DNA from: a virus
Virus record (IMG/VR): IMGVR_UViG_3300006790_000086
Span: 1-28,585 of that record
DNA length: 28,585 nt
Strand: one strand, 5' to 3'
In this document: piece by piece, positions 6,878 through 25,531 of the stretch
How the letters are laid out: each line of letters opens with the position of its first letter
Position numbering within the stretch: the first letter of the stretch is position 1
Position numbers and translations under genes: made by a program
The notes under the pieces: model-generated
The model's input: only the letters and a program-made list of their open reading frames with translations
What the model was told of the DNA's origin: nothing
Database searches by the model: none

Positions 6878-9800
6878 ATGGCTTTTAATCCTTATGGATT
6901 CTATGAGTATGGTGGTAAACCAGAACCTCAAGGAGATAAGGCTGCAACCCCTGCAGAGTTCACTCCTACATACACAAAAAAACAATTAGATAGCATAATA
7001 AATGCTTATAAAAACAATCCTAAAGCATTTAAACCTGAGCATATAGATTCAATAAAACAACACGCAATATACCATAACACTGGCTTCTATGAAGGTGATT
7101 TCCAAATATCAGAAGCTATAAAACAATTTATGGGTGGTGTAGTAGAAGGTTGGTCAACATTTAGCCCTGTAGATGCCCCTGATAATGAATACGAAGCTAT
7201 TGCACGTAATGTAGGACATTTACTTGGTTTTGCTCCAGGTATGGCTGCTAAACCATTAAAACTATTAGGACTTAGAACTGCTGCTGCTAAAGTAGCAGGA
7301 TGGAAATCTATACCATTAAAAGTCGGTGAAGAAGCTACTAAACTTACAGGTAAATTTGTAAAAAGTGTTATTCCTGCTGCTAGGTTTGATGCTACTAATA
7401 CTGCAAGTAAATTTATAACAGGCGGAGCTGTTAAAAGCGTAGCAGAAGAAGCTATGAAGCTTGGTGTTGCTAGTGCTGTAAGTAATTGGAAGCAAGGTGT
7501 AGATGGTGTGATGATGGCCGCTAGAAGTGGTGGTGAATTTGGTGCAGCATTTCAAATACTTGCTAATGCAGTTCCAGGAAGTGGAACATTTAAATATTTA
7601 TTAAGAGCATTTGCAGGTTCTATGTATCAAGGAATGCATGCTGAAGCTGCTGGAGCTACTACACCTGAAAAAGTATATGAATATTTACTTGGTGCATACT
7701 TTGGTGGTGGAGGTGCTGGTTGGGTACAAAAAGACAAAGCTAAGTTTTTTAAAGAAAGAAACGAGCAAATGTATGGTACTAAAGGTAAAAAAGCAGACCA
7801 TAAAGCTGTTGCAACTGGAGACCCTACTCTTATTAAAACATGGGAAAAGTATGACCCTATAGTTCAAAAAGAAATTATAAAAGAATTAAATGACCCTAAC
7901 TATTATGGTAAAGGTAGACCTAGTGAAAATTGGAGACCTCAACATCAATTAAAAGAAGGTGAAACTTACCCTGAAAGAACAGCAATGCTTGAAATGCTTG
8001 CTAAAGGTGCTGGTATAGATACTAAACTAGAAACAGTATCACAAAAAGGTTGGGAAAGATTTAATAAAATGCAAGAAGATGCTATTATCGGTAAAAAACC
8101 AACTGGTCTTGCTATAAGTACTGAAAAAAGATTAAATGAGTTAAATGTCCAAAAGAAAGATTTAGCAGAGCAAATAACTAAGAAAAGAGCTGAAATAACT
8201 ACTTTAAAAGGTTCAGATAAAATGCTTGCTGAAACAGAGCTTGGTAGATTAGAAAGAAAGGTTGAAGAAGTTATTCAACTAGAAAAAGAACAACTTGATT
8301 TAAAACCTTATGAATTTATTGACAAAGCAGGTGAAATTAAAAACGAAAGAATGAATGATACTGGTAACGATATTGGTATGATAGCCGCTATTGATTTAAC
8401 AAAGAAATCAGAAAATCTTGTAAATAAACATTTAAAAAAGTATTGGGATAAAGATGACTTTGAACCTATAGATAAACGTAATGAGATGTTACGTTTAACT
8501 AAAATAGTAGATGATGTCGTAAGTGGCGAAAAATACAACAAACCAGGCGAAAAAATCGATACCCAAGAGTTAACTCAAGATATAATAAAAACTCTTAAAA
8601 AAGAGGAAAATATCGACTTAAACACTAATACTAAGAAGTGGAAAGAAACAGAAAATGAATTAAGACAGTTTTTAACAAGACGTAACTTTTCTAAACCTGT
8701 TAATTATATTAACATGACTATTGATAAAGGTGGTAAAATAAGCGACTTTAAATTAAGAGAAGGTGGTTTTACTAACGCTGGAAATAGAAAAGAAAGCATG
8801 GAGCCTAAGAAAGAAGTCCAAAGAGTTTTAGAAGAAGCTATGGGCAAGGACGCAGAAGTTCCTGAAGCTAGTGTTATATTAGATAATATGACATTTAGAG
8901 GGAATAAAGGTGAGTGGATAGATGGTGGGCTTGGAGATGTAAGAAAGCTTCTTAGAAATGAATATCGATATAGTAAAAAAACAAAGTGGAGAGATGTATA
9001 TAATGGATTAATTAAAGAATCTCATAAGAGAATGGAAAAAGAAGGTTATTATCCTTTTGGTGGTAAAGGTGATAATGATTTAATTATATACATTAAAAAA
9101 CATCCTGATTTACAAAAACCTAATGTTAAAAGATATATAAACGAATATATAACAGAGTTAACTAAAGATTATAAAAATTCAAAGTACTATAACCAAGCTA
9201 TAAAAAGAAATAAATTCTTTAGTGAAAAAGAGGCTAAAGACCAGTATTTAAGTAATATTATGTACGATATAGGATTAAATGGATTTAAACCTAAAACAAG
9301 TAAAGAGTACAGAGAGGTTTTAGATAAACTTTTTAAAGGTAAAGGTTACATTAAAAATGCTACCGCTTGGAATAAACGTCAACAAATATGGTTTACACCT
9401 ACTTATAGAGCTGATGGTGATTTTATCAATAATAATTTTAAACGATATATAGAAAGATTAAGTCAAGCCGATAGAAATGATATAAACCCTGCATTTAACA
9501 ATGTTTTAAAAAATAATGAAGTTAATTATGTAATAGTAAGGGATTTAGACCCTGCATTATTTAGTCTAGATGGCAAAAGAATTAAAAAGTTAGATAAAAA
9601 TAGTAAGAATACTGAAATGGATGAGAGTGTAGATGGCCAAATAACTGTAGAAGATACTTTATTAAAAGCTATTATTAAAGATGCTGGAATGCCTGAAAGT
9701 GGTAATAGTAAATCGTTTATTGTTAGTCCTGATGGACAAATGGGAGCTTTACTTGGTAAGTATATGATGCATAGTGCAGGACCAAAAGCATCTAAACAAA

Positions 9801-12800
9801 TGCGTAGAGCTGGCGTACATATGATTATGCAAGAAACAGCTGTTAAGCAAAGAGGTGAAAGAAAAATAACTGATTACAATATTAAAAATGATAATTTAGT
9901 AATAGATGATGCATCTCTAATTTATAGGCTACCTTTAAAAGATATCAAATATTCTTATAGTGTAAAAAATGATGATGCTATGATAGGGTTAAATCCTAAT
10001 GGAACTATGCATAAACATGGCCTACCTAAACAGTTATTAATGGCAATGGCTCAAAATACATTTAAACCTTTTCCTAAAGAAATGGTTGAAGATTTTTATA
10101 GAGAAACTGTACTAAAGAAATATGATGGAAAAAAAGAAATAAATGAATTATATGATGATTATAAAGATAATCCAAAGAGTAAGAAATTACTTAGACTATT
10201 AGAGGACAATATAGAAGATTTAGGCGTTGAGAGATTACTTGATGCAATAAATGGTAATCCTACAAACTTTTCTGATGCTGCTTATATGCGTTTAATGAAG
10301 ATACAAAAAGATGATATAATGCATAGAGTTGCTGATGGAGAAATGACTCCTGAACAAGCTGAAAAGTTAGTTCAGAATATGGAAGAATTTAACAGCTCTA
10401 TGGACAGAATAGTAGAAGCTGGGCAACAATGGAAAACAAGAGAGCAATTAATTGGTAGAGACGGTAATATTAACCCATTACTATTACATAAATGGATAAG
10501 GCCATACAGATTCCAGGTAATTAGAAACTATGTATTTAACTCACTTAGTAGACCAAAGATAGGTAATAGTGGTGTAGCCCGTATGCGTGGTTATGATAAA
10601 TGGTTTCAAACAGAATTAGATTCAAAGGGTAAAAAGAAATTTGGTGAATTAGAGACAAATGATGAAATATTTTATCTAGATGATGCATTTAAAAGAATGC
10701 CACTTAAAACTACTATTAAAGGTTATGAAGATACTACTTTAAGTGAATTATGGTATGACTCAAAAGGTTTTGGTAAAAAGAAAAAAGCACAAGCAGATGA
10801 AGTATTTACTGCTTTAACAGTAAGAGTGCCTATGGACTCTGTTAGTGGAGCTCAAAAAATGGTGTTTAGAGGATTTACAGGTAGACCTGGCCATGGTATA
10901 TTAATGCATGGTAGAGCTATGAAAGCTGAAGGTGGTGCTGACCTTGATGGTGATGAGTCATTTATATTTTTTGGTGGAAGAAAAGGTGATAAAGGTGAAG
11001 GGCTTAGAAAAGAATGGATAGATAAATTTCATGAAAATAAAACAGAGTTTTATAATGAAGATGGTACGATTTATAATAACAAAAATAAAGAAGTTACTGA
11101 ATCTTTAACTATGCAAGACTCTAAAACTACAACAGGTATTGACCCAAAAGCTAGAGATAGTAAAATGTGGCAATATGATTCACAATGGAGACAAGATATA
11201 TCAGAAAGAGCTGTAGAAGGTCGTAACTTATTAGGTGGAACAGTAAGTGGTGCTCAGGTATTAAAAGCTGCTCACAATGCAATGCTTGAAATGAAACAAG
11301 GACATACTTTTACTGTTTATAAAGGTAGGAAAAAGTTAAGAATAAAATTAACGCCTAGAACTGAAGAAGCAGAACTTGAACAAGCTAGAAAATTAGCATC
11401 TTCAATGATAGCGTTTACATCTGACCCTCTTGATGTAGCTGGTTTAACAGGTTACAAAGATTACATGAGTAAGTTAGGTAATGCTTATTTTAAAGTGAAG
11501 ATAAACGGGAAAGATGCAGAGATAACTCCTGACAATCAAGCTCAAGTATTTAATAAAGAAGGTATAATAGGGCAAGTTAGAGATATAAATAAAGCTCTTT
11601 ATAGTAGAGACTATTATAATAACAAATCTTGGGACGCTGTAGATATAAATCAAATGACTGCTGTTACAAAACCAAATAATGTGTCACCTCTTAGAAATTC
11701 AGAAATGCATAATAATATGCTACTTAAAATAGGACGTTTAGCTGCAGATGTAGAGTTATACGATAGTCCATTTAGAATGATAGCACCAGAGCGTTTAGTT
11801 GCAATGTATAATGATTACAACAATATAACTCAAAGAATACCTATGTTTAAAGATTTACTTCCAAACGTTAAAGTTACACCAAACAATTTAATGTTAAAGA
11901 TAATGGGTATTAAGGTTAAAGATGGAAAGGTTTATCAAACAAATAAAAAGTTATACGAGCAACAAGAATTAGAAAGAGTTGCTAACAGTTTACCTGAATT
12001 TTATAAGTATATTAATCATCCTCAAAGTCAATTCAGACCTGGTGGAAGTGAAAGAAGTAACTTTAGCGATGCTTATGCTCAAAAAAATCGTCAATATAGA
12101 ATAGATAAACTGAAAGAGCTTATAAAAACTAATGAAGATTTTTTATCACAAGATGTAAGTGATATGGTATCAGTTAGACAGATATTTAAATACTATGATG
12201 GTGTTGAAGTAAATCCTACAATGTTTAGAAAGATACTAAAACAAACTCAAGATTTAAAAAACAATAGTTATCTTCAGAGAAAAGAATTTACTGAAGAAGC
12301 TATGGAAAGAAAAACAATAAGGCAAATAAGAAAAAGTTTTGGTGTACCTGAAACAGCTGAATTAGAAAAAAGTGCTACATTAAATCAGGCTGAATTAGAT
12401 GCTGCAATACAAATGGCTAGAGAAACTATGCCTAATGCAAGAGCTAAAAAACTATTTGACCATTTAATGCTTGGAACTTTTAGACACAGTACTATGGAAA
12501 CTGGTGTAAATAAACTAGGATTTGCGTCTAAAGCTATAGACCCTGCTAGTTTAACAGACTTTGTTGGTGACTTTACACAAGTAATGACTAAAGCTTATAA
12601 AACTCCTTCACCAAACTCTGAATTAAATCGTAAACTATTCAAAGAAATTAGATTTGAAAAGGATTTACCTGAAGGAACAATACTTGAAGATACTACTACA
12701 GGTTATGAAGGTCTTTATGGTAAACCTGATATGAAACTAATACCTAAACAAGTTAGACAAGAGATTACTGAACTTGTTGATATACTAGGTAAATACAATG

Positions 12801-15754
12801 ATAAAGTTGGACAAGACTTAAATCTAATAACTAGAGATTTATTAGGAAAAGATTTTAATGCAATGGATTATGGTGATATAAAAAATCTAAATAGGTATTT
12901 TAAAGAGTTGCAAAGAGGTACTATTTGGCAGAGGTTATTTAGAGAAAAAACACCTGACCTTAGAAAAAGGTATACAATGTTATTTCCTCTTACAATAAAT
13001 AGAGAGACAATGAAGTATGACATTCATCTTATGAAAAAAAGAGGTTTGTTTATGACTCAAGCTGGTGAAGTTGCTTCTGGTGACATGGCAAGACCTACAA
13101 ATATTACAGAGAAACTCCATCATGGTATAACACTTGCTATGGATAAAGCACAAGCTAAAGGTGATGAAGAAGTGTTTAAACTACGAAGAGAGCTAGAGTT
13201 TCTTGATGGTATAGATGAAGGTGAAGCCTTTAGAATGATTGGTGTAAGGAAGCTTGAAGCAGATGGTAATGTAGCTAGAACACTTGGCAGGAAAGATACA
13301 CAAGGTCAAATTTGGGCACGTAATTATATTGAAGCTTTAAAAAGTGATATAAAAGACACTAATTATGAAGTTATTAAAAATAATAGATACAGAATAACTC
13401 AAAGAACACCTGAAGGTGAAGTTAAACGTATTGAAATGACAGGTAAAGATATTACTAAGAAAGTAATAGATATTTATAAAAATCATTTTCAAAATGTTTA
13501 CGATAAAGTTATTAGAGGTAACCAAGAATTTCTTGATAGTTACCATGAAAGAAGTGCTAAAGGTTACAAAATATATCACGATTTTAAAGATTACAAAACT
13601 CTTGATGACCCTATTAATGGTGGTAAACGTAAAATGCCAATGGAGCCTAAATATGAATATAAGAGATTTATTAAAGATGTTTATGAAGCTTATGAAAGAG
13701 GTCAAGATATTACAACAGACCTTGGTATAGATGGTATTAGAGCTATAGCTCGTTCTATGATGATTCAATTACATCCTCAGTATAAACATAAGTATAGAAC
13801 ACCTGAAGAGCTAAGAGCTCAAATAGGATTAATACTGCCTACAGGTAAAATTGAAGAGGGTTATTGGCCTCATATGTTATTTGATAAAGGTTTAGCAAGT
13901 AAGGCACTTTTAAATGCTCTGCAAAAGATTGATAAATCTACTATGACAGCTGCTGAAAAGAAAGAAGAAGCTAGAAAAATTCAAATGCGTAGTAAAACTT
14001 TAACAGGTGATTGGATTACAGGTACAGAGAATTGGGATGCTTTTGATGCTAAAATGCACCCTAAAAAGTTTAAAGGCAATGCTATAACTTGGAAAGAATC
14101 ATTACAAATGACTTCTTCAATGCATAAAAGAACAAGTCACATTCCAGGTCACTCTATTGATGCTACTGTTGCTGAGGTTTATACTCGTAACATGTATCAA
14201 ACTTACTATAAACAATTAGCTCAAATGCTATCTAGAAAAACATTGTTTGATTTTGATATGAGAGCTATTGATATGGGTTGGGCTAAAGAATGGACAGGAC
14301 CTAAAGGTAAGCAAAGAACTTTAAAAGATAGATGGCATGATTGGTATAGTTTATACGTTCAAGATGCTTTAGGACATCCAAGTACTATTCCAGAGTATAT
14401 ATTAAATGACCCAGGAATGAAAATAAAAGGCACACCTTATGCTTGGTGGGCTGATAATGTTGTAGCTAATAAAATGAATAAAGTTGCAAAAGCTATTGGC
14501 CTTAAAACACCATTTAAAGATGTAGATAAATATGATGTAAATGATGTTAGAGCTTTATCTAATCTCGAAGCTAAGTTTGAGCTTATGTCTTTACTTGCAC
14601 ATCCTAAGTCTGCTGTTGTTAACTTATTTGGTGGTTCACTGCATACTATCCAAAGTGCAGGTGCTTCTGCTCTTAGAAAAGTATATGATTATGGATTTTT
14701 AAAACAAATAAATCCTAATTGGACATCACGTCAAGATATTAAAGATTTTGCTATACAACAAGGTGTTTTCCCTGAGATGTTAGCACATGAGTGGGGAATG
14801 CAAAAAACTTTACAAAATAGTAAATCTAAAACTTTTGTTAAAGATTTAGTTGAAAATGTATCTAAAGAGGGTACAATAAACCCTGATAAGATTCGTGAAC
14901 TTGCTTCAAAACATAATGTTGGTAGAAATGTTATGGAATTTGCTGCTAAGTTTATGTCTAAACCTGAAATGAAACTGCGTACTGATGCGTTTATGGCACA
15001 TTACATTAAAGCCTGGGAACGTTTTGGTGGTGCTATTACTCAACATGACCATCCATTCTTAATTGAAATGGCTAAGAAAGGTGTTAAAGCTACACAATTC
15101 TTATATGATTCGGTAAATCGTCCAGCATTTGCTAGAACAGGTTTAGGTAAGATAATGACTCGTTTCCAGTTATGGTCTTGGAATGCTTGGCGTTTTAGAA
15201 ATGATGTTAATCGTGAAGCTCGTATCCGTGGTTATCGTCAGGGTACTCCTGAGTATGAAAGATTTAAAAGAACAGCGTCTATAGATTTATTAGTTTATGC
15301 TCTTGGTAGTGTGTATGCTATGAGTATATTTGAAAATGCTATTCCTGCACCTTATAATCATCTAAAAGAAACATCTGAATTATTGTTTGGTGATGATAAA
15401 GAAAGAGAAAGAGCGTTCTGGGGATTATATCCTAGGTCTATAGCTCCTCTTCAAGCTATTACTCCACCTGTTGTTTCTAGAACTATTGAAGGTTTAAAAG
15501 CTATGAGTAATGATGATTATGAGAAGTTTCTTGATTACCATATTTATACATTTATGCCATTTGGTAGGATAGCTAGAGATATATCTCCATGGGCTAGTGG
15601 TAATTTAATTGATAATCCTTATAGATTTATTGAGAAGACTACAGGTATACCATATGGTGATATACAAAGAGAACGTACTAAATATAAAGATGAGTTAGCA
15701 TATCATCCTACATTCCAAACAGCTGCTCAATTAAAACAACAGATAGAAGATTAA
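6878..15754 (+). CDS. Giant virion protein, candidate virion RNA polymerase, 2958 aa
   Basis: GAGGAG at 6862-6867 precedes the ATG. Amphipathic Gly/Ala-rich segments at about residues 75-280 resemble ejection proteins. The key motif is GGADLDGDE at residues 1352-1360 (nt 10931-10957). It has the Asp-x-Asp-Gly-Asp pattern of the metal-binding loop in the beta-prime-like double-psi barrel of two-barrel RNA polymerases. The stretch before it (VRVPMDS, then GILMHGRAMKAEGG) fits the same barrel as seen in crAss-like phage virion polymerases. About 400 residues earlier, GKYMMHSAG (Lys961) and ETAVKQRG (Lys990) could supply the two lysines of the beta-like barrel. The last 350 or so residues resemble the ends of large polyvalent phage proteins. 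The polymerase call is inferred from motifs; the virion role is inferred from size and gene order. No other polymerase gene lies in the window. Confidence 0.6.
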   Translation: MAFNPYGFYEYGGKPEPQGDKAATPAEFTPTYTKKQLDSIINAYKNNPKAFKPEHIDSIKQHAIYHNTGFYEGDFQISEAIKQFMGGVVEGWSTFSPVDAPDNEYEAIARNVGHLLGFAPGMAAKPLKLLGLRTAAAKVAGWKSIPLKVGEEATKLTGKFVKSVIPAARFDATNTASKFITGGAVKSVAEEAMKLGVASAVSNWKQGVDGVMMAARSGGEFGAAFQILANAVPGSGTFKYLLRAFAGSMYQGMHAEAAGATTPEKVYEYLLGAYFGGGGAGWVQKDKAKFFKERNEQMYGTKGKKADHKAVATGDPTLIKTWEKYDPIVQKEIIKELNDPNYYGKGRPSENWRPQHQLKEGETYPERTAMLEMLAKGAGIDTKLETVSQKGWERFNKMQEDAIIGKKPTGLAISTEKRLNELNVQKKDLAEQITKKRAEITTLKGSDKMLAETELGRLERKVEEVIQLEKEQLDLKPYEFIDKAGEIKNERMNDTGNDIGMIAAIDLTKKSENLVNKHLKKYWDKDDFEPIDKRNEMLRLTKIVDDVVSGEKYNKPGEKIDTQELTQDIIKTLKKEENIDLNTNTKKWKETENELRQFLTRRNFSKPVNYINMTIDKGGKISDFKLREGGFTNAGNRKESMEPKKEVQRVLEEAMGKDAEVPEASVILDNMTFRGNKGEWIDGGLGDVRKLLRNEYRYSKKTKWRDVYNGLIKESHKRMEKEGYYPFGGKGDNDLIIYIKKHPDLQKPNVKRYINEYITELTKDYKNSKYYNQAIKRNKFFSEKEAKDQYLSNIMYDIGLNGFKPKTSKEYREVLDKLFKGKGYIKNATAWNKRQQIWFTPTYRADGDFINNNFKRYIERLSQADRNDINPAFNNVLKNNEVNYVIVRDLDPALFSLDGKRIKKLDKNSKNTEMDESVDGQITVEDTLLKAIIKDAGMPESGNSKSFIVSPDGQMGALLGKYMMHSAGPKASKQMRRAGVHMIMQETAVKQRGERKITDYNIKNDNLVIDDASLIYRLPLKDIKYSYSVKNDDAMIGLNPNGTMHKHGLPKQLLMAMAQNTFKPFPKEMVEDFYRETVLKKYDGKKEINELYDDYKDNPKSKKLLRLLEDNIEDLGVERLLDAINGNPTNFSDAAYMRLMKIQKDDIMHRVADGEMTPEQAEKLVQNMEEFNSSMDRIVEAGQQWKTREQLIGRDGNINPLLLHKWIRPYRFQVIRNYVFNSLSRPKIGNSGVARMRGYDKWFQTELDSKGKKKFGELETNDEIFYLDDAFKRMPLKTTIKGYEDTTLSELWYDSKGFGKKKKAQADEVFTALTVRVPMDSVSGAQKMVFRGFTGRPGHGILMHGRAMKAEGGADLDGDESFIFFGGRKGDKGEGLRKEWIDKFHENKTEFYNEDGTIYNNKNKEVTESLTMQDSKTTTGIDPKARDSKMWQYDSQWRQDISERAVEGRNLLGGTVSGAQVLKAAHNAMLEMKQGHTFTVYKGRKKLRIKLTPRTEEAELEQARKLASSMIAFTSDPLDVAGLTGYKDYMSKLGNAYFKVKINGKDAEITPDNQAQVFNKEGIIGQVRDINKALYSRDYYNNKSWDAVDINQMTAVTKPNNVSPLRNSEMHNNMLLKIGRLAADVELYDSPFRMIAPERLVAMYNDYNNITQRIPMFKDLLPNVKVTPNNLMLKIMGIKVKDGKVYQTNKKLYEQQELERVANSLPEFYKYINHPQSQFRPGGSERSNFSDAYAQKNRQYRIDKLKELIKTNEDFLSQDVSDMVSVRQIFKYYDGVEVNPTMFRKILKQTQDLKNNSYLQRKEFTEEAMERKTIRQIRKSFGVPETAELEKSATLNQAELDAAIQMARETMPNARAKKLFDHLMLGTFRHSTMETGVNKLGFASKAIDPASLTDFVGDFTQVMTKAYKTPSPNSELNRKLFKEIRFEKDLPEGTILEDTTTGYEGLYGKPDMKLIPKQVRQEITELVDILGKYNDKVGQDLNLITRDLLGKDFNAMDYGDIKNLNRYFKELQRGTIWQRLFREKTPDLRKRYTMLFPLTINRETMKYDIHLMKKRGLFMTQAGEVASGDMARPTNITEKLHHGITLAMDKAQAKGDEEVFKLRRELEFLDGIDEGEAFRMIGVRKLEADGNVARTLGRKDTQGQIWARNYIEALKSDIKDTNYEVIKNNRYRITQRTPEGEVKRIEMTGKDITKKVIDIYKNHFQNVYDKVIRGNQEFLDSYHERSAKGYKIYHDFKDYKTLDDPINGGKRKMPMEPKYEYKRFIKDVYEAYERGQDITTDLGIDGIRAIARSMMIQLHPQYKHKYRTPEELRAQIGLILPTGKIEEGYWPHMLFDKGLASKALLNALQKIDKSTMTAAEKKEEARKIQMRSKTLTGDWITGTENWDAFDAKMHPKKFKGNAITWKESLQMTSSMHKRTSHIPGHSIDATVAEVYTRNMYQTYYKQLAQMLSRKTLFDFDMRAIDMGWAKEWTGPKGKQRTLKDRWHDWYSLYVQDALGHPSTIPEYILNDPGMKIKGTPYAWWADNVVANKMNKVAKAIGLKTPFKDVDKYDVNDVRALSNLEAKFELMSLLAHPKSAVVNLFGGSLHTIQSAGASALRKVYDYGFLKQINPNWTSRQDIKDFAIQQGVFPEMLAHEWGMQKTLQNSKSKTFVKDLVENVSKEGTINPDKIRELASKHNVGRNVMEFAAKFMSKPEMKLRTDAFMAHYIKAWERFGGAITQHDHPFLIEMAKKGVKATQFLYDSVNRPAFARTGLGKIMTRFQLWSWNAWRFRNDVNREARIRGYRQGTPEYERFKRTASIDLLVYALGSVYAMSIFENAIPAPYNHLKETSELLFGDDKERERAFWGLYPRSIAPLQAITPPVVSRTIEGLKAMSNDDYEKFLDYHIYTFMPFGRIARDISPWASGNLIDNPYRFIEKTTGIPYGDIQRERTKYKDELAYHPTFQTAAQLKQQIED

Positions 15755-18233: not shown

Positions 18234-18393
18234 CTTTAGCCTCCTTTGCGAACGTTAGTATTAAAGCATAGCTGAATATTCCAATAAGTATTTTATACTC
18301 ATTTAGAAATAGTCCGTTACGTTTGGCTACGCTAAGTTCAAGAGCCCAGATTTTAATTCCGAGCTCTTCATTTGTTTTTAAGAAACTAATCAT
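18175..18393 (-). CDS. Small probable membrane protein, 72 aa
   Basis: The ATG lies behind AAGGAG and overlaps the primase-helicase stop by eight bases (ATGATTAG). Residues 34-50 (KILIGIFSYALILTF) form one likely membrane helix, followed by a Lys/Glu-rich cytoplasmic-type tail. There is no signal-peptide cleavage motif. The role is unknown; membrane attachment of replication complexes is one possibility suggested only by the neighbour genes. The long overlap with the HTH gene is unusual, but both have good ribosome sites. Confidence 0.6.
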   Translation of the reverse strand: MISFLKTNEELGIKIWALELSVAKRNGLFLNEYKILIGIFSYALILTFAKEAKDAKKNKQKLEESKNNVASA

Positions 18394-20164
18394 ATGTTCT
18401 CCTTAATCTAAAGCTTGGTTGCCATTCTAACTTAGTCTTAAACAGCTCACCATCAGTGTTTTTAAGCACTTCTAGCGTTTTGTTAGGACTGTTAGATTGA
18501 CCATTTAAGCCTATCACTTTACGTGATGCGTTTTCTATTGCACCTGAACCTTTACCTGCATACAGGTCAAGTACCTCATTTCTTGAGTATTCTCGTGAGA
18601 CCTGAGATACTTGAATTATGATTAAATCATTGTTTACAGCCATGCTTGAAAGTGAGTGTGATATATATTTGATTTGTTCATATTCCCCTCTAACATGAGG
18701 TGGAGTTTCGACCAAATCAATGTAGTCAACAACTACCACAGCTGGACGCAATTCTTTAACTTTAGCCTGTATTTGTTCAAGTGTTGGAGGTATAGTTTGA
18801 ATAGCCATATGATTAAGTTTATCTTTGTGCTTTTGATACACCTCTTTTGGATTCCTATTTATATCTTCTTTTGTTAAACCGCTTACTATTTGCATGTTAC
18901 GTCTATGCATATACCAAGCAGATAACTCTAAAGATAAGTACAGAGTAGGTAATTGCCAATCAGGATTAATATCATCATTCGCAAAATCTACTCCTAGTGC
19001 TATGCACTGTGCAAGTGTTGTCTTACTTGAGCCTGTTGGTCCAAATATAGTTACTAACTCGCCTGGGTATATCTCTGTATCAGCGTTATTTACACCTAGC
19101 ATTTCTGATAAAGGTAGAGCTCTTCCTGAAAAGTCAGAGTTCATTCTTTCTTCTAGTTTAGCTTGTAAATCATCACTGCTCATCACATCGATAAGGTAGT
19201 CTTTTCTTTTGAAATGTATGCACCGTGTCTTACAATGGTTAAGCATTATTTCATCTTGGCAACCAAATCTATAACCTCTGTTATAAACATACTCAACTTT
19301 CTCTATTACATTGTTTTCATTTAAACTATTGTTATTCCAATGTAGTATAGCAGCTTTAGCATATTCACTTGGTATACCATGTCTAAAGAAATGACTTGCT
19401 ATTCTTATAAGGGTTTGATTTCTCGTGCCCTCTTGTGGCCCATTTGAAAGCATTTCTTGTACACAGGGGATAACATCCCTAGGTTCAACAACTTTGCTTA
19501 TTTTGGCCATTCTAGTGGCTTTTTGAACTATTGTATCTTCTAACTCGCCATTACCTACTAACTCTGAATAAGCATAGTCTAGTCTTGGTGACTTCGCTAA
19601 TTCATGTATATTTTCAAACTTGCTTGTAAGCATTTCGTTCATAGTTAGAGGTATCTTATGCAAGTCAGTCTTTTTATTAACAGTGTGTTGTACTCTGTAT
19701 ATACCTGTTCTCATAAATATAGAGTTATCTATATCATCGCCAAATATATTTTTCATAGTACCTTTAACTACATAGTGTATGTTATCACTATTAGGAAAGT
19801 TAAATACACCACCATGAATTGCAAGATGGTAGCCACTACCACTAAAGTAACATTGAAGACTCCAGTCTTTATCTATTCCTAGTTCATCTAGTTTATAAAT
19901 AATATTTCTTGCTTTGTCTAGTGTGTATTCATCACTACTGTTACCTTTATCTATATCTAAAAGTATCCAGTCTATGCTTCTTTCACCAAAGTAGTTTTTT
20001 AAACCACCATTAGCTTCAGCAAACTCTACTGCTTCTTTTGTATATAGATAAACACTACGATACAATGGTTGCTCAGGTTTTATATAGTTAACTAAGTCTT
20101 TCTTTGCAATAAGTTGCCCTCTATGACGAGGGCTCCCTACTGCTATTTCAACATAGTCGTGCAC
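18386..20164 (-). CDS. AEP primase-helicase fusion, 592 aa
   Basis: The N-terminal domain (residues 1-180) has archaeo-eukaryotic primase features: LLDID with Asp70 and Asp72 for metal binding, SGSGYHLAI with His113, and the third-motif-like region with Arg157, Lys165 and Lys170. A small Cys/His group (Cys302, His310, Cys311, Cys315) could bind zinc. The C-terminal RecA-fold motor has Walker A GPTGSSKT (375-382), Walker B VVVVD (Asp480) and a QVSQVSRE sensor-like stretch, as in DnaB-type helicases. It makes primers and unwinds DNA at the phage fork. The start is GTG, sharing one base with the stop of the SSB-like gene, so translation is coupled. No DNA polymerase is present in the window. Confidence 0.85.
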   Translation of the reverse strand: MHDYVEIAVGSPRHRGQLIAKKDLVNYIKPEQPLYRSVYLYTKEAVEFAEANGGLKNYFGERSIDWILLDIDKGNSSDEYTLDKARNIIYKLDELGIDKDWSLQCYFSGSGYHLAIHGGVFNFPNSDNIHYVVKGTMKNIFGDDIDNSIFMRTGIYRVQHTVNKKTDLHKIPLTMNEMLTSKFENIHELAKSPRLDYAYSELVGNGELEDTIVQKATRMAKISKVVEPRDVIPCVQEMLSNGPQEGTRNQTLIRIASHFFRHGIPSEYAKAAILHWNNNSLNENNVIEKVEYVYNRGYRFGCQDEIMLNHCKTRCIHFKRKDYLIDVMSSDDLQAKLEERMNSDFSGRALPLSEMLGVNNADTEIYPGELVTIFGPTGSSKTTLAQCIALGVDFANDDINPDWQLPTLYLSLELSAWYMHRRNMQIVSGLTKEDINRNPKEVYQKHKDKLNHMAIQTIPPTLEQIQAKVKELRPAVVVVDYIDLVETPPHVRGEYEQIKYISHSLSSMAVNNDLIIIQVSQVSREYSRNEVLDLYAGKGSGAIENASRKVIGLNGQSNSPNKTLEVLKNTDGELFKTKLEWQPSFRLRRTYD

Positions 20165-20778
20165 TATAAGTTTCCTATACCTGTTCCAGACATTTCAACA
20201 GTCTGTTGTGGTGTCTCAGTATCTGATTCAGTAGCTTCTTTTATGAAACCTTTGCCTTTAAACCATTTAACATCAGCTTCAAGTTTCTTTCTACCTTCTT
20301 CATCAGCTTTTTGTACTTTTTGAAATACTCTTGAGTACACTTTGCCACCTTTAACTTTAGGTTTTTCTTTATAGATGTATGCTATATAGTTATACTCTGG
20401 GTCAGTATCAGGTATTATATCTTGAGAAACTGTTGCGTTTAAATACTTAGCTATATCATGTATTATTTCGCCATTTTCATTTTCCCATTCACCTTTTACG
20501 TTTAGTCCTGCTGTACAACCTATTACATCAAAGAAGTGATATAGTCTTTTAAGAGCTGAACCACCAGTTATGTTACCATTAGAATCTTTATCAAGATTAC
20601 CTGTGATTCTTAACTGTTTAGTGTAGTCACTACCTTCTTGTTTTATTTCTACATCTAGATATAAGTCAGCCCAATCATACTGTGAAGTTTTATCTTCAAA
20701 GCCTAATATACCAAACTTACATATTCCATAGAAATTACTACCATTACCACTACTTTCTTTTGGCCTAAATATTGCCAT
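20164..20778 (-). CDS. Putative single-strand DNA-binding protein, 204 aa
   Basis: The start MAIFRPKESS is chosen because GGAG lies nine bases upstream; a frame opening 15 codons earlier lacks one and overlaps the ATPase gene. The product is beta-rich through residues 15-110 with many aromatic residues (YGICKFGILGF, WADLYLDVEI). The C-terminal part has charged residues, then a Thr/Glu/Gly-rich tail. Its place between a Sak4-type ATPase and the primase-helicase is typical of phage single-strand DNA-binding proteins, but the acidic tip seen in classical SSBs is absent. The call is mainly from context. Confidence 0.45.
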   Translation of the reverse strand: MAIFRPKESSGNGSNFYGICKFGILGFEDKTSQYDWADLYLDVEIKQEGSDYTKQLRITGNLDKDSNGNITGGSALKRLYHFFDVIGCTAGLNVKGEWENENGEIIHDIAKYLNATVSQDIIPDTDPEYNYIAYIYKEKPKVKGGKVYSRVFQKVQKADEEGRKKLEADVKWFKGKGFIKEATESDTETPQQTVEMSGTGIGNL

Positions 20779-20779
20779 A

Positions 20780-21451
20780 CTACTTTTCTCCTTTCGTTGT
20801 TTTATAGATGTTTTTCCAATCAAACTCTATGTGTTGTCCTCGTAAATGTTCACATCTACTACCTGCTTCTATAGATTCATCTGCTTTAAATGATATCATT
20901 AGTTTGTCATCTTCTCTTAAGACATAACCGATAGCGTCACAATCCGACATAATCAGATTCTTCAGCTTACCAGTTATATCTAAAGATTCAGGTTCAACAA
21001 GAGCCTTGCCATCGACAACAGCTCTTGCAACCTTTCTATGACCAACGATAATCAAATGTTCACAAACGTCTCTAAAAGCATTAATAGTATTCATTACTTT
21101 TTCACGAGCCAACGCATAACCTTTACCGAATGTTAAATCAGCTATAGATGCTACCTCATATTCTTCGCAGACAGCCTTTTCAGCCCATTCTACAACTTTG
21201 TCAATAGTATCTATTGCTATGTATTTAAATTCGTGACCTTCCATAGCATCTTTAAGAGTTTGGATTAACTCTTCTCGGTTATTTACTTCTTGAACATATG
21301 CTTCTAACATATGTGTTCCTTTTTCTGTGTCTATAATCAGACAGTCATCTAACTGTGAGAGCATAGTAGTTTTACCTACTTTCGGTGCTCCATACATTAG
21401 AAGAACTTTCGGATTTAGAGACACGGGTTTGCGTTTCTGTTTTTTCAACAT
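20780..21451 (-). CDS. Sak4-like RecA-fold ATPase, 223 aa
   Basis: Walker A is GAPKVGKT (residues 21-28) and Walker B is YIAID (Asp81). The spacing and the early LIIDTEKGT stretch are typical of the AAA_24/Sak4 family, the RecA-core single-strand annealing proteins of phages. Such proteins promote recombination or annealing together with a phage SSB, which fits the next gene. The start ATG has AAGGAA upstream and lies 80 bases inside the end of the E1-like gene. The N-terminal residues MLKKQKRKPV before the first strand support this start. The long overlap locks expression of the recombinase to the conjugation cassette. Confidence 0.85.
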   Translation of the reverse strand: MLKKQKRKPVSLNPKVLLMYGAPKVGKTTMLSQLDDCLIIDTEKGTHMLEAYVQEVNNREELIQTLKDAMEGHEFKYIAIDTIDKVVEWAEKAVCEEYEVASIADLTFGKGYALAREKVMNTINAFRDVCEHLIIVGHRKVARAVVDGKALVEPESLDITGKLKNLIMSDCDAIGYVLREDDKLMISFKADESIEAGSRCEHLRGQHIEFDWKNIYKTTKGEK

Positions 21452-22127
21452 CTGTCATTCCTTCTATTATTGCTGGGTTTACTAGCCCCTCTTCGAGTGA
21501 TAAATAGGGTGCTAACGATTTATAAATATACATATAGAATGACCTATTATGCAAGACATTATATACTTGTGACAACATTAAGCCAGCAATTGTGTTTGCT
21601 GTAAATATTGTATGCTTTGCAGTACAAGGTAAATCAGGTATATCTTTACTAGATTGCCATCTTTCTAGATAGGTATCTCTTAAAGGTGTAGCTGTATGTA
21701 TATCCATTGACAATGCTCCCATACGTCCGTCCACAAGAACTGTACGCCTTGGATTTCTAGACCAATTCATATATACAATCTTACGAACTTCCATATTATC
21801 AGGAGCCATCATAACACATGGTGTTAAACCATCTAAAATACTGTATTCACCGTGTTCTATGATTTCTGTGTGTTCACATCCAAAGTATTTAACCAACTCT
21901 TTGGCTGCTTCTGTTTTTGACTTACCCAAATATTGTTGTGGGTACATCGTTGTGCTTAAGTTATGTTCTTGAAGCACATCATAATCCCAAACATGAATCT
22001 TTCTAAAGCCCATTATGGCAGCTGATAGTATGAGCGCAGAGCCCACACCACCAGCACCAATAATGGTAACTTCTTCTAGATTCTTTTGGTTTATTATGTC
22101 TTTATTCCTTAAGAATCTACTACTCAT
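21372..22127 (-). CDS. E1/ThiF-like adenylating enzyme, 251 aa
   Basis: A Rossmann nucleotide loop GAGGVGS (24-30) follows the first strand VTIIGAGG. Then come DYD (Asp48, Asp50), EHNLS with Asn56, and LGKSK (Lys69, Lys71), the classic order of ATP and metal contacts in E1/ThiF enzymes. VVD-type strand LVDGRMG gives Asp133. DLPCTAK supplies Cys168, the likely thioester cysteine. No paired CxxC zinc site was seen. The enzyme should adenylate the C-terminus of the ubiquitin-like protein and pass it to the E2. Its ATG overlaps the JAB stop (ATGA) behind GGAGG. The last 25 residues are a Ser/Thr-rich tail overlapping the ATPase gene. A sulphur-carrier role as in thiamine synthesis is an alternative, but an E2 partner argues for conjugation. 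Confidence 0.85.
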   Translation of the reverse strand: MSSRFLRNKDIINQKNLEEVTIIGAGGVGSALILSAAIMGFRKIHVWDYDVLQEHNLSTTMYPQQYLGKSKTEAAKELVKYFGCEHTEIIEHGEYSILDGLTPCVMMAPDNMEVRKIVYMNWSRNPRRTVLVDGRMGALSMDIHTATPLRDTYLERWQSSKDIPDLPCTAKHTIFTANTIAGLMLSQVYNVLHNRSFYMYIYKSLAPYLSLEEGLVNPAIIEGMTDVEKTETQTRVSKSESSSNVWSTESR

Positions 22128-22960
22128 CTAGCACCTCCAAACAATCCTATTTGAAAGCAATAGTCGTCTAGTTTCTTTTCAGCTTCTGTTGCTTTTTGAT
22201 TAGCTTCATCACTTTTAGGATGATTCCAATGTAAAGACTGATAGTAATCTTCTTTCTTGCGAAAATCTTCAAGAAGTTCTTGATACTTTTTGTCTTTTAC
22301 ATCATCATCGTAGATTTCCTTATTGTTATAAGCTCCCCACATACTAACTTGTCTAGTATAAGGATTATTATACCTAACAATATTAGATGTTTTAACAACA
22401 GTTTTAGCTTCTTTTTCTTGCTTAACAAGAGATTTAACACATTCTGCAAATGCGCCTTTAGGTTTGTATTTATCCCATTCAATCTCATATTCAGCTTTTT
22501 TGTAGTCAGTTACTATTGTATGTCCACGCTGAGTTGTATAACTTACAGCAAATGCATATGGACTACCTGTAGAATCATGAGCTACAACAAGAGATGGATA
22601 ACCTGTATTATTAGCGCAATGCTCTAATTGGTCTTTATCTACACTACTAATATAAGCACCACCTGATAACCCATGGTGACTATGTATTAAACCTTTATAG
22701 CACTCTTTAAGTTTTGGATTATCTTTGTATGCTTTATCTTGTGTATCCATCAATTGTTCACCATCAAACTCTGTTGCAGCACTACTGCCTAAATCGATAG
22801 GATAAAATCCTTCAATTCGCCATGTATCTGACCAATTGTGTTTGTCTGGCTCTACCATCTTATAAAATGCAACACCTGACCATTCTGTTTTAGGAAACAG
22901 ATTGAGTAAGTGCTTCACTTGTTGATGTACTTTCTTCGGAATGATTATTTTCATTTCCAT
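22124..22960 (-). CDS. JAB/JAMM metalloprotease, 278 aa
   Basis: The zinc residues are visible: Glu26 in TEWSGVAFY, HSHH at 93-96, and SSVD with Ser105 and Asp108. In the usual JAMM pattern (HxH, seven residues, Ser, two residues, Asp) the gap is shorter; here nine residues lie between His95 and Ser105. The EWSG opening is common in phage and bacterial Mov34-like proteins. The enzyme likely trims the modifier or removes it from targets. Residues 165-278 are charged and helical with no known motif. The start is 71 bases inside the end of the E2-like gene, with AGAGG upstream; the stop overlaps the E1 start. Together these show one translation unit. Confidence 0.85.
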   Translation of the reverse strand: MEMKIIIPKKVHQQVKHLLNLFPKTEWSGVAFYKMVEPDKHNWSDTWRIEGFYPIDLGSSAATEFDGEQLMDTQDKAYKDNPKLKECYKGLIHSHHGLSGGAYISSVDKDQLEHCANNTGYPSLVVAHDSTGSPYAFAVSYTTQRGHTIVTDYKKAEYEIEWDKYKPKGAFAECVKSLVKQEKEAKTVVKTSNIVRYNNPYTRQVSMWGAYNNKEIYDDDVKDKKYQELLEDFRKKEDYYQSLHWNHPKSDEANQKATEAEKKLDDYCFQIGLFGGAR

Positions 22961-24485
22961 TTTTTGCCTCTCTTTCGTAGTTTTCTACATATGCACTAAG
23001 TTCAGCATATTGTAGTTGTAGTTTCTTTTTGAATGATAAGTTAAATTGATATTCGTATTCAGGATATAAAGATTCTGCTTCTGCCATTAATCTTTGATAC
23101 TCTTTGAATACATCAACCACTTCTTTTTCTGATGATAAGTTTCTAGCATAATCAAGCATTTCCATGTAATCGTTAAACTTTCTATCACTTTCCCAACAAT
23201 TCATCCATGAATTTATAAATGAACTTATATCTTTTTTGGCACCGTAATACACGGCATCTTGAAGAGCATGTAGTTCATTTAAAATAGAATTTACTGCTGT
23301 ATAAGATTTAAAACATTTACTTTTTAAGTCTAAATCTGTTTCATTAATAGATGGTGCAAAGTTTGCGTAATCACTATAAACGGAATGTTTATTCTTTTTA
23401 TTAAAATACATACTATACTGACCACTTATCTTTTTATTTAATCTACGTAAATCACTAGACATGCTTTCAGTCCATTTGCCATCATACTCTTTTTCAATGT
23501 TTGAATTGTTAATCATTAGTTTTACAAATTCCATTGTAACGACAAACTTTTCTGATTGTGTTAATTCAGCATAACTAGGTGTATTACAAAACTTATCAAA
23601 ATTCCAAAATAATGTCATCCAAGCTGTTTTTACTTCTTCAGATTGATATACAGGCTCAATTTTCTCTTCATTAAGAGGATTTAATTGCATGCTATAATAT
23701 AACATGGTCCTACCTAAAGGTTCTGAATCATAAGCTTTTTTTCTGGCACTTGGAAGCATTATTTTTTCGTAACTGTATGCATAGTTTGTATTATATGTAT
23801 CTATTAAAGTCCTAGAAGACCTTAAGAAATTATAACCATGACCTCGCTCATTTACTTCAAACATACCAACCATTAAACCAGGATGATAAGGTTTAATACT
23901 TCTTTCAAACTGTTCAGGACGATAATGTGGGCTATTATAAGTCCAAGTGTTTAAATACATTTGAACTTTTTCAAAGCCACTTATATAACTATGTGCATTA
24001 AAAGATGCTTTAATAGTAGTTTCCCAATCAGCCATACAAGCTTGACCTGCTTGTATATGTGGATGTGCTGCAGCTATATATTTATACTCTATTTCATTCT
24101 TATCATTTACTACTGGTTCTTTTGTATAAAATTTCCAATTAGTTTTACTATAAGCATTGTTTACTAACCTTAAATAATAATCGCCAAGTCTAAAGATTTT
24201 ACGTCTTCTAATTCTAACATCTTTAAACTTAACCCAAAGTTCAAAAGAACCTTTATCTACTTTAAAACCATGACATTTTTTATCTTCATCATTAGTTACT
24301 ACATCAACAATGTCGAAACTTGCATGATTAACAAGAGATTTAGCTAAATCTTTTGAATCATATTGTGGTCTAATAAAATCCTTTTCTTGATAATGGTCAA
24401 ATTCAGTAAGCATTACATCAATAACTTTATTATCCCTTTTCTTTATAGCTTCTAGCATGCTATATACTTGAACGAACATGTTCAT
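22890..24485 (-). CDS. E2-like protein with large extension, 531 aa
   Basis: The strand and turn before the active site (YKYIAAAHPHI, residues 135-144) and GQAC with Cys150 fit the HPx...GxxC signature of E2 enzymes. In E2s the HP follows the fourth strand and the Cys receives the modifier from E1. A helix-rich stretch with Trp154, MYLNTW and NSPHYRP follows, as in the second half of the E2 fold. The part before residue 135 (GDYYLRLVNN, WKFYTKEP) gives the strands expected upstream. About 330 residues after the core are helical, charged and unrecognised; they could choose substrates in place of an E3. AGAGG precedes the ATG. The call rests on the motif and on the E1, JAB and Ubl neighbours. 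An unrelated fold with a chance motif is the alternative. Confidence 0.65.
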   Translation of the reverse strand: MNMFVQVYSMLEAIKKRDNKVIDVMLTEFDHYQEKDFIRPQYDSKDLAKSLVNHASFDIVDVVTNDEDKKCHGFKVDKGSFELWVKFKDVRIRRRKIFRLGDYYLRLVNNAYSKTNWKFYTKEPVVNDKNEIEYKYIAAAHPHIQAGQACMADWETTIKASFNAHSYISGFEKVQMYLNTWTYNSPHYRPEQFERSIKPYHPGLMVGMFEVNERGHGYNFLRSSRTLIDTYNTNYAYSYEKIMLPSARKKAYDSEPLGRTMLYYSMQLNPLNEEKIEPVYQSEEVKTAWMTLFWNFDKFCNTPSYAELTQSEKFVVTMEFVKLMINNSNIEKEYDGKWTESMSSDLRRLNKKISGQYSMYFNKKNKHSVYSDYANFAPSINETDLDLKSKCFKSYTAVNSILNELHALQDAVYYGAKKDISSFINSWMNCWESDRKFNDYMEMLDYARNLSSEKEVVDVFKEYQRLMAEAESLYPEYEYQFNLSFKKKLQLQYAELSAYVENYEREAKNGNENNHSEESTSTSEALTQSVS

Positions 24486-24609
24486 TGTTTACCTCTACTT
24501 TCTTTTTTTAGTTAAATAGACTACATAGGGAATTTCACCCTTACCACATTTACGCCATCGTGTAGCTTCATATGCTACATCACCTCGTCTATTTATTGTT
24601 AGTTACCTC
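24486..24609 (-). other. Gap with an open frame lacking a start codon
   Basis: This 124-base gap separates the ubiquitin-like and E2-like genes. One frame is open for 33 codons (24596 to the stop at 24495), from an ATA codon to TAG. It encodes a plausible peptide with ATRWRKCGKG and IPYVVYLTKK, yet it contains no ATG, GTG or TTG. AGAGG lies about ten bases before the ATA. The gap may be a decayed small gene, one starting at ATA, or a leader. No terminator was seen. Confidence 0.3.
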
Positions 24610-24843
24610 TTATTTACCAGACTTGTTAGAAGCCATAGTAATTGTTACACTATCTCCAGCGTTGATTGCTGTACCCATATCAACATTATCTCTTGCAACA
24701 CCACCATTTGTTATTCTGATGATTACGTTGCTCATTGATAAGTTAATATCTTCCAAAATAGAACCAACTGTTGGAAAATTATCAGTTGTTTCTGGTCTTG
24801 GAGTTCCATTAGGTGTATCTAGGTAAAACGTATTATTTGACAT
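24610..24843 (-). CDS. Ubiquitin-like (ThiS/MoaD-type) modifier, 77 aa
   Basis: The pattern is that of a small beta-grasp protein: PTVGSILEDINL (24-35) as strand turn and helix, NVIIRITNG (39-47) as the central strand and turn, then INAGDSVTITM (60-70), the Gly-Asp-x-Val-Thr end found in ThiS, MoaD and bacterial ubiquitin-like proteins. The C-terminus is SNKSGK, so the usual Gly-Gly end is missing. A single Gly lies before the last Lys, and removal of one residue by the JAB enzyme would expose it. The start follows AGGA by nine bases. It is the first gene of the cassette and lies just after a terminator-like hairpin. It probably is the protein activated by the downstream E1 and E2. Confidence 0.7.
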   Translation of the reverse strand: MSNNTFYLDTPNGTPRPETTDNFPTVGSILEDINLSMSNVIIRITNGGVARDNVDMGTAINAGDSVTITMASNKSGK

Positions 24844-24881
24844 ATCATATGTCCTTTCTTGGTGCTTTATCTTTTGTTTAT

Positions 24882-24925
24882 AAAAAGAGCCTGAAAAGCA
24901 ACACCAATTAAACTAATCAGGCTCT
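24882..24925 (-). terminator. Rho-independent terminator upstream of the modifier gene
   Basis: On the - strand the stem AGAGCCTGA / TCAGGCTCT (nine pairs) is followed by five T. The loop is about 22 bases, larger than usual. It lies 38 bases before the modifier ATG, so upstream early transcripts could be stopped here or held back, with the cassette started or released separately. On the + strand no T-run follows. Confidence 0.55.
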
Positions 24926-25531
24926 ATGAGGCAAACTGGATTGTTCGCCTAATTTAATCCAGACAGAGCCATCCTTAGTGTATCGCTGATTAAACGCCTT
25001 TTCTCACTAGTGTCTCTGTCTGGTATGTTATAACATAATACTTTGGTAACTCCTGCAACTTCCAGCCAGGCAATATTGTAGTTGATTAACTCAAATAAAT
25101 AAGGAGTTCTAATGGAAATAGAACTTTTTGAAATGTCAGATAGTAAACTGAGTACTATCTAGGGAGTTTTTATGCTGTTACCAATTTAAATCTTGGCATA
25201 CTTTCAAGGTAGGCGCGCGGTCCTTTGAACCTTGCTGTTAGGTATGCCAGCCATAACCGTAGGGCTAGTAATCACTACTTGTATGTTATTTGCTTTTTAC
25301 TATATCAAGTACCAATCGTCCTCTAGCCCTATTTAATTCTGCAAGACTGCACGCAAATAAGGGGATGTGTGCGGAAATATACTCGAAAGATAAGTTTACG
25401 TGCAGTCTTTTTAGATGAGTTGTATTAAGGACGTCATAAAGATAGAGTTAATGAACCAAAACTCTACGACATGTTAAGAAAGGATAAAACTCATGTCTAA
25501 CGCCCCGATTGTTCTCACGATACAATCCAAC
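24926..25531. other. Non-coding array of stem-loops
   Basis: No convincing gene lies here. Inverted repeats follow one another: 24936-24942/24956-24962, 24959-24968/25014-25023, palindrome 25025-25036, 25105-25111/25119-25125, 25138-25145/25153-25160, 25194-25201/25242-25249 with inner 25205-25210/25229-25234, 25260-25268/25323-25331 with inner 25276-25281/25306-25311, 25343-25353/25399-25409, and 25443-25449/25460-25466. Stems are 7-11 perfect pairs. The first two share bases and exclude each other. T-runs follow the stems at 25125 and 25408 on the + strand. No tRNA loop sequences were found. The array could be structured RNA, attenuators, or a single-strand replication or packaging signal. 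Confidence 0.6.

Follow-up and report, generated by a model that had tools for sequence, protein, structure and literature searches.

What could a complete set of ubiquitin-like conjugation genes be doing in the replication operon of a marine bacterial virus? This question is raised by IMG/VR virus record IMGVR_UViG_3300006790_000086, a fragment whose full 28,585 bases form the window analyzed here. An initial annotation had placed on its − strand four adjacent genes, for a ubiquitin-like modifier (Ubl), an E2-like protein, a JAMM/JAB metalloprotease and an E1/ThiF enzyme, and the listing of open reading frames (ORFs) contained all of them at the coordinates first reported, encoding 77, 531, 278 and 251 residues in the order of transcription. 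By all sequence evidence, the four genes are a conserved phage conjugation cassette, and we consider it probable that through them the phage encodes a ubiquitin-like conjugation pathway, one that is reversible and operates during infection. Judged by sequence comparison, the initial observation was right and understated, the cassette being conserved in many phages.

The compact E1/ThiF adenylyltransferase (21372–22127, − strand; GAGGVGS, D48, K71, C168) matched Pfam ThiF (PF00899) at 6.7e-14, with 52 bits against a cut-off of 28.1. The GxGGxGS motif, D48, K71 and R135 were conserved in about 31 sequences, C168 was present in 31/31, and all distinct E1 rows except two carried C-T/S-x-K/R-H/Q-T. 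The ThiF match, the glycine-rich motif, the Asp and Lys residues and the conserved Cys place the window E1 in the ThiF/MoeB/UBA superfamily. C168 also aligned with a cysteine conserved in 9/9 ThiF proteins of the plasmid-borne PRTRC cassette. When the E1 profile was compared with the PDB, UBA5 was the best match (2.6e-13), and MccB and the SUMO/ubiquitin E1s ranked ahead of MoeB and ThiF; among NCBIfam models the best matches were ThiF/MoeB, under cut-off. The metalloprotease (JAB; 22124–22960, − strand) contains E26, HSHH 93–96, S105 and D108, and E26, H93, S94, H95, S105 and D108 were retained in 30/30 sequences, corresponding to the JAMM pattern E...HxH-x(7+)-S-x2-D. The Pfam scan of the window protein gave no match, and its crAss-phage homologues matched Prok-JAB at 6.5e-5, just under cut-off. 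Its profile aligned to PRTRC_A (hhalign probability 95.6) and placed HSH..S..D on the CSN5 JAMM motif with an E-value of 0.03, which is weak by itself. The initial E1 call from GAGGVGS and C168 is thus borne out by the Pfam match, and the JAMM call from Glu26, HSHH and Asp108 by the invariance of these residues in relatives.

The E2-like protein (531 residues; 22890–24485, − strand) carries HPH141–143...G147..C150. A chance origin of this motif was ruled out by 20,000 shuffles of the protein, from which HPH...G..C was absent. Among marine-type E2 sequences, H141, P142 and H143 were conserved in 39/39 and C150 in 40/40, and a further 33/33 kept HPH...C; the crAss-type proteins showed HxH...C-x-G in 22/22. 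Marine-type E2 therefore has a candidate catalytic Cys following an HPN-like motif, as UBC/E2 proteins do, and its motif shape, HPHI..G..PC(L/W)G, is close to the eukaryotic HPN...G.ICL. The AlphaFold (AF2) model orders the N-domain as a helix, antiparallel strands, the HPH loop, Cys150 and two helices (predicted local distance difference test score, pLDDT, about 75–94), which is the UBC order; this UBC-like N-domain (about residues 1–185) is followed by a long, fast-evolving, mostly helical tail of low confidence. Profile alignment with hhalign joined the marine and crAss-type E2 domains with Cys on Cys (E 6.6e-5, probability 64). Against UBC, represented by two reference sequences, the marine E2 gave E 0.004 at a low probability of 8, its HPH falling on HPN and its Cys on the UBC Cys, and unrelated families mostly gave E 0.1 or worse. 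A UBC fold of the N-domain is thus supported by predicted topology, motif and profile alignment.

The modifier (77 residues, ending ...SNKSG-K; 24610–24843, − strand) was predicted to be a beta-grasp protein (AF2, pLDDT 90.3), as the initial annotation had supposed, and its best fold matches in the PDB were TtuB (Z 8.2, root-mean-square deviation 2.4, 62 aligned residues) and ThiS, with ubiquitin and SUMO below; Pfam, NCBIfam and PHROG scans assigned it no family. In the predicted model it combines the beta-grasp with a C-terminal Gly, as ubiquitin-like modifiers do, and all close relatives have Ser-Gly in place of the Gly-Gly of ThiS/MoaD carriers. With C150 invariant and the Ubl predicted as a beta-grasp, neither of the outcomes named beforehand as fatal to the initial annotation came about. 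The close marine set showed N-K-S-G in 25/25, followed by nothing, K, N, IVA or other endings; other marine branches had K-x-x-SG and then 0–14 residues, and crAss-type modifiers ran from 1 to >200 residues past SG, one member having GG there. Cleavage at this position best accounts for a Ser-Gly that is conserved while the residues beyond it vary freely. The Ubl would then be a precursor cut after Ser-Gly, by analogy with ubiquitin and SUMO precursors, and the adjoining JAMM protein is the candidate protease. In the uncultured phage cr106_1 (locus L037, 2408–3611), an HNH endonuclease gene separates the Ubl from its apparent C-terminal extension; the core stops just past KIKSG, and the apparent extension is now a separate ORF beyond the HNH gene.

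Searches by tblastn and pattern found the E1 in 28 and then 110 viral contigs and the JAB in 292. Among annotated phage records, 74 contained the E1; these were Flavobacterium phages (FpV4 group), Bacteroides phages (crAss001, DAC15 and PhiCrAssBcn) and uncultured Steigviridae. In a hidden Markov model (HMM) survey of fetched loci, the Ubl-E2-JAB-E1 order was complete in 52, and in 3 more the Ubl, too diverged for the HMM, was found by eye just before the E2; in the first locus set, every locus with >4.5 kb upstream of the E1 had all four genes. The JAB led to 42 further loci, at least 24 of them with the whole set; most of the others either ran off a contig end or carried a Ubl identified by eye. 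The gene order, for which the initial annotation had proposed a search in other phages, is thus complete in >70 other phage loci, some of which are near-copies of one another. The loci fall into two deeply split lineages, one of marine phages and one of Steigviridae crAss phages together with Flavobacterium phages, and the E1 tree separated the marine type, the crAss type and PRTRC with strong support for each. In many of these related phages, well-known gut phages among them, the genes had been annotated with unrelated functions or with none. In phiCrAss001 (L036, 3932–8342), gp79 is a Ubl with a C-terminal extension, gp78 is the E2-like protein, and gp77 and gp76 are labeled 'metalloprotease' and 'thiamine biosynthesis protein, ThiF', labels better read as the cassette JAMM protease and E1, respectively. 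One strong viral relative in the viral fold library, A0A516LW79 (E 3.3e-12), is nameless. A pattern scan built on the E1 alignment gave 41 matches in 84,980 bacterial and archaeal genomes, none of them confirmed, and distant copies may lie outside the patterns. Neither ubiquitin nor ThiF is mentioned in the main text of the crAss genome and structure publications consulted, within a partial coverage of the literature that leaves room for a description elsewhere. Several loci hold additional genes: a conserved 145-residue gene that one marine clade has between JAB and E1 (L160, 3414–3860; L162, L165, L173 and L174), small ORFs of 59–78 residues at the same place in other clades (L009, L032, L179 and L188), and a radical-SAM-like gene upstream of the Ubl (L016, 4002–4889, and L090, 3328–4233; CSYCYMRRH or CSYCYMKRH motif).

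All four cassette genes showed ratios of nonsynonymous to synonymous substitution (dN/dS) below 1 in close pairs, indicating purifying selection and ruling out a pseudogene cassette. The ratios were 0.10–0.26 for E1, 0–0.51 for JAB and 0–0.11 for the adjoining Sak4 gene in close pairs, and 0.36–0.57 for E2 in marine pairs. Between the window and locus L009, identity was 82% for E2 and 98.6–100% for Ubl, JAB, E1 and Sak4, and the E2 region past the N-domain changed the most. E2 evolves fastest of the four, which suggests, at the sequence level, a changing partner or target, and mildly favors one that is host-facing or otherwise changeable.

In the window, 71 bases are shared by the E2 and JAB genes, and an E2/JAB overlap occurred in 72/75 loci of both lineages; the E1 gene in turn overlaps the gene for a Sak4-like recombinase (20780–21451, − strand; PHROG 124, 4.1e-33) by ~80 bases. 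Beyond Sak4 on the same strand lie an SSB-like protein (20164–20823), a conserved syntenic ORF whose family name is that of the initial annotation and which had no match in PHROG and Pfam scans, and a primase-helicase (18386–20164; Pfam DnaB_C, 4.4e-14; PHROG 19, 1.4e-31). The continuation of the cassette into replication genes, as initially described, agrees with the PHROG 124 and DnaB_C matches and with the ORF order. Each of the four cassette genes (4/4) has a purine-rich, Shine-Dalgarno-like stretch ahead of its start.

In the pathway that we consider probable, the JAMM protease would trim the Ubl precursor after Ser-Gly, and the E1 would adenylate the exposed glycine and hold the Ubl as a thioester on C168 before it is handed to C150 of the E2. 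The long, fast-changing E2 tail may act as a built-in, E3-like substrate recognition element, so that the Ubl would be joined to a target lysine, and the JAMM protease could also strip the tag again. Expression of the cassette would be tied to the replication genes through gene overlap, and the target would most likely be a protein encountered during takeover or during replication of the phage DNA, with a host target slightly favored over a phage one because the E2 tail changes quickly. Several observations weigh against this interpretation. The full-length E2 structure search (PDB, VIA) returned only helical-bundle matches to the tail and no UBC, because the helical tail filled the full-chain results; of the initial E2 call, the HPH motif and the Cys150 invariant in marine-type proteins stood, and the UBC fold was left unconfirmed by this search. 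No Pfam or NCBIfam E2 model matched the E2-like protein, PHROG gave it no assignment either, and a separate E3 was not found. Sulfur carriers share the beta-grasp fold predicted for the Ubl, and TtuB is its top match by Z score. Relaxed constraint or recombination could instead explain the fast evolution of E2, and dS was also raised in E2 of the window/L009 pair.

The strongest rival to phage-directed conjugation during infection is replicon maintenance as it might operate in PRTRC plasmids, where the same chemistry would act on one of the element's own replication, recombination or partition proteins; we regard this as a real, if tentative, possibility. The phage order is shared with PRTRC C-(F)-B-A-ThiF, E1 and JAB are homologous between the two, the inspected phage copies sit in a replication/recombination block, and PRTRC has ParB as a neighbor and, in one instance, ssb nearby. 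However, PRTRC itself is without an established function, and a self-target alone fails to explain why E2 diverges much faster than the adjoining replication proteins. Counter-defence, in which the cassette would compete with or undo host Bil/CBASS-type systems through a decoy Ubl or JAMM de-tagging, appears rather unlikely. Bacterial Ubl systems do act against phages (PMC10097602, PMC11153139), and the E1 is weakly similar to the BilD/Cap2 type, but a complete set that retains every active site is more than a decoy requires. In both lineages, moreover, almost every locus of which enough sequence is available retains the cassette, unlike an optional accessory, and its age and wide spread in phages make a recent anti-Bil acquisition less likely. 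Sulfur transfer, with the Ubl as a ThiS/TtuB-like carrier, an E1-made thiocarboxylate, release of the carrier by the JAMM protein and delivery of sulfur to a tRNA, nucleotide or metabolite, seems unlikely. The Ubl fold matches to TtuB and ThiS, the sub-threshold NCBIfam matches of the E1 and the 'thiamine biosynthesis' annotations of phages all point toward it, yet an E2-like gene with HPH...C always sits in between, the Ubl tail is Ser-Gly instead of Gly-Gly, no rhodanese or sulfurtransferase domain was seen in the cassette, and the PDB ranking of the E1 profile puts UBA5, MccB and the SUMO/ubiquitin enzymes ahead of MoeB and ThiF. A virion assembly tag, also raised initially and modeled on the Ubl-JAB pair of lambdoid tail clusters (TAPI/TAPK; PMC1779556), is very improbable: the cassette lies in a replication block rather than a tail block and includes E1 and E2, neither of which is described for those clusters, gp76–79 go unmentioned in the main text of the phiCrAss001 structure paper, and nothing in this analysis supports the marking of virion parts.

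The 117 bases ahead of the Ubl gene (24844–24960, − strand) form an RNA leader with two hairpins and a pseudoknot, according to an alignment of 12 leaders, 10 of them distinct, and a covariance model. In this alignment 98.2% of cells were paired and 11 pairs had changes on both sides; 0/500 shuffles reached such pairing, and slid controls were 31–48% paired. Covariation is exemplified by GGTGTT/AACACC becoming GATGTT/AACATC in L013 and AGTGTT/AACACT in L011. The covariance model matched once per locus, only before the Ubl, in the close marine clade, and a leader pattern scan of all viral contigs returned 9 stretches, 8 on contigs known to bear the cassette. No Rfam family matched at its gathering threshold, and a FasX match (28.5 bits, gathering 100) was treated as chance. 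The 3′ strand of the pseudoknot sits a few bases ahead of the Ubl ribosome-binding site. Pseudoknots are known to control translation, for example in the T4 gene 32 leader, which the present leader resembles in position; the pseudoknot probably modulates Ubl translation. A separate stem bounds the Ubl-E2 spacer (window 24486–24612, − strand) around a variable interior, with apparently covarying arms TTAAAAGAGAG...CTCTCTTTTAA and, in the window, AAATAGAC...GTCTATTT; it also occurs in the same gap of L011, L013, L016, L020, L028 and L032.

Elsewhere in the window, on the + strand, a 2,958-residue protein (6878–15754) that Pfam left unassigned has a DLDGD motif (residue 1355) resembling that of the giant virion RNA polymerases known from crAss-like phages, and a 1,296-residue protein (194–4084) with no Pfam match looks like a tail fibre from its repetitive composition.

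What is known of complete ubiquitin-like pathways in bacteria comes mainly from host defences and plasmid cassettes, and a complete, conserved phage-specific set makes protein tagging by bacterial viruses directly testable, the more so as it is carried by cultured gut phages whose hosts are tractable, phiCrAss001 of Bacteroides intestinalis and DAC15 of B. thetaiotaomicron. The labels 'thiamine biosynthesis' and 'metalloprotease' would be corrected, and the phage set would offer a handle on PRTRC function. On a broader proposal we are evenly divided: that a large share of crAss-like and marine phages have a complete ubiquitin-type pathway of their own, made up of tag, E1, an E2 whose tail recognizes the target and a protease that removes the tag, with translation of the tag under pseudoknot control in one clade, and that this pathway would remodel host or replication proteins in the course of infection.

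Among known systems, the plasmid PRTRC cassette arranges its genes as the phages do, C (Ubl)-[F]-B (E2)-A (JAB)-ThiF (E1), and is likewise found on mobile elements; by content it corresponds to class 6d of Iyer et al. 2006 (PMC1779556; models TIGR03735–TIGR03742). Its E1 and JAB are homologous to those of phages (hhalign 98.5 and 95.6), and the Ubl domain closes with a single Gly, in some cases followed by a tail. No significant hhalign link was obtained between the Ubl and PRTRC_C or between the marine E2 and PRTRC_B, and PRTRC_B has neither the HPH nor the long tail of the phage E2, whose HPH is like the eukaryotic HPN. The ThiF model TIGR03736 (cut-off 144.75 bits) gave 17.0 for the window E1 and 32.8 for the DAC15 E1, and the PRTRC_A model TIGR03735 (cut-off 101.8 bits) gave no match in the window and 15.9 for DAC15. 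PRTRC E, F and ParB genes were absent beside the phage cassette in the window, itself a fragment. Membership in PRTRC was rejected on these scores far below cut-off, the missing E, F and ParB genes and the separate E1 branch. In the plasmid locus L124 (5974–6594), an ssb gene follows the PRTRC cassette, an echo of the phage replication setting. The Bil (bacterial ISG15-like) operons, cited initially for comparison, likewise hold Ubl, E2, JAB and E1 in one operon, carried by the host instead of by a phage; of the PADLOC BilA–BilD models, BilD alone matched, weakly and over part of the E1 (5.2e-4), with none for Ubl, E2 or JAB, and membership in Bil was rejected. The shared four parts and the weak BilD match thus remain of that comparison, with PRTRC the nearest known relative. 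UBA5 and the ThiF/MoeB enzymes share the compact adenylating domain with the phage E1 but differ from it around the cysteine, where the phage-specific C-T/S-x-K-H/Q-T lies, and TAPI/TAPK of lambdoid phages are likewise a phage-encoded Ubl and JAB, but in a tail-assembly locus with no E1 or E2 (PMC1779556). Scores below the PRTRC cut-offs, the lack of E, F and ParB and an E2 with HPH and a tail mark a separate branch, and the phage cassette probably works like PRTRC/Bil-type systems, yet forms a phage-specific branch of its own.

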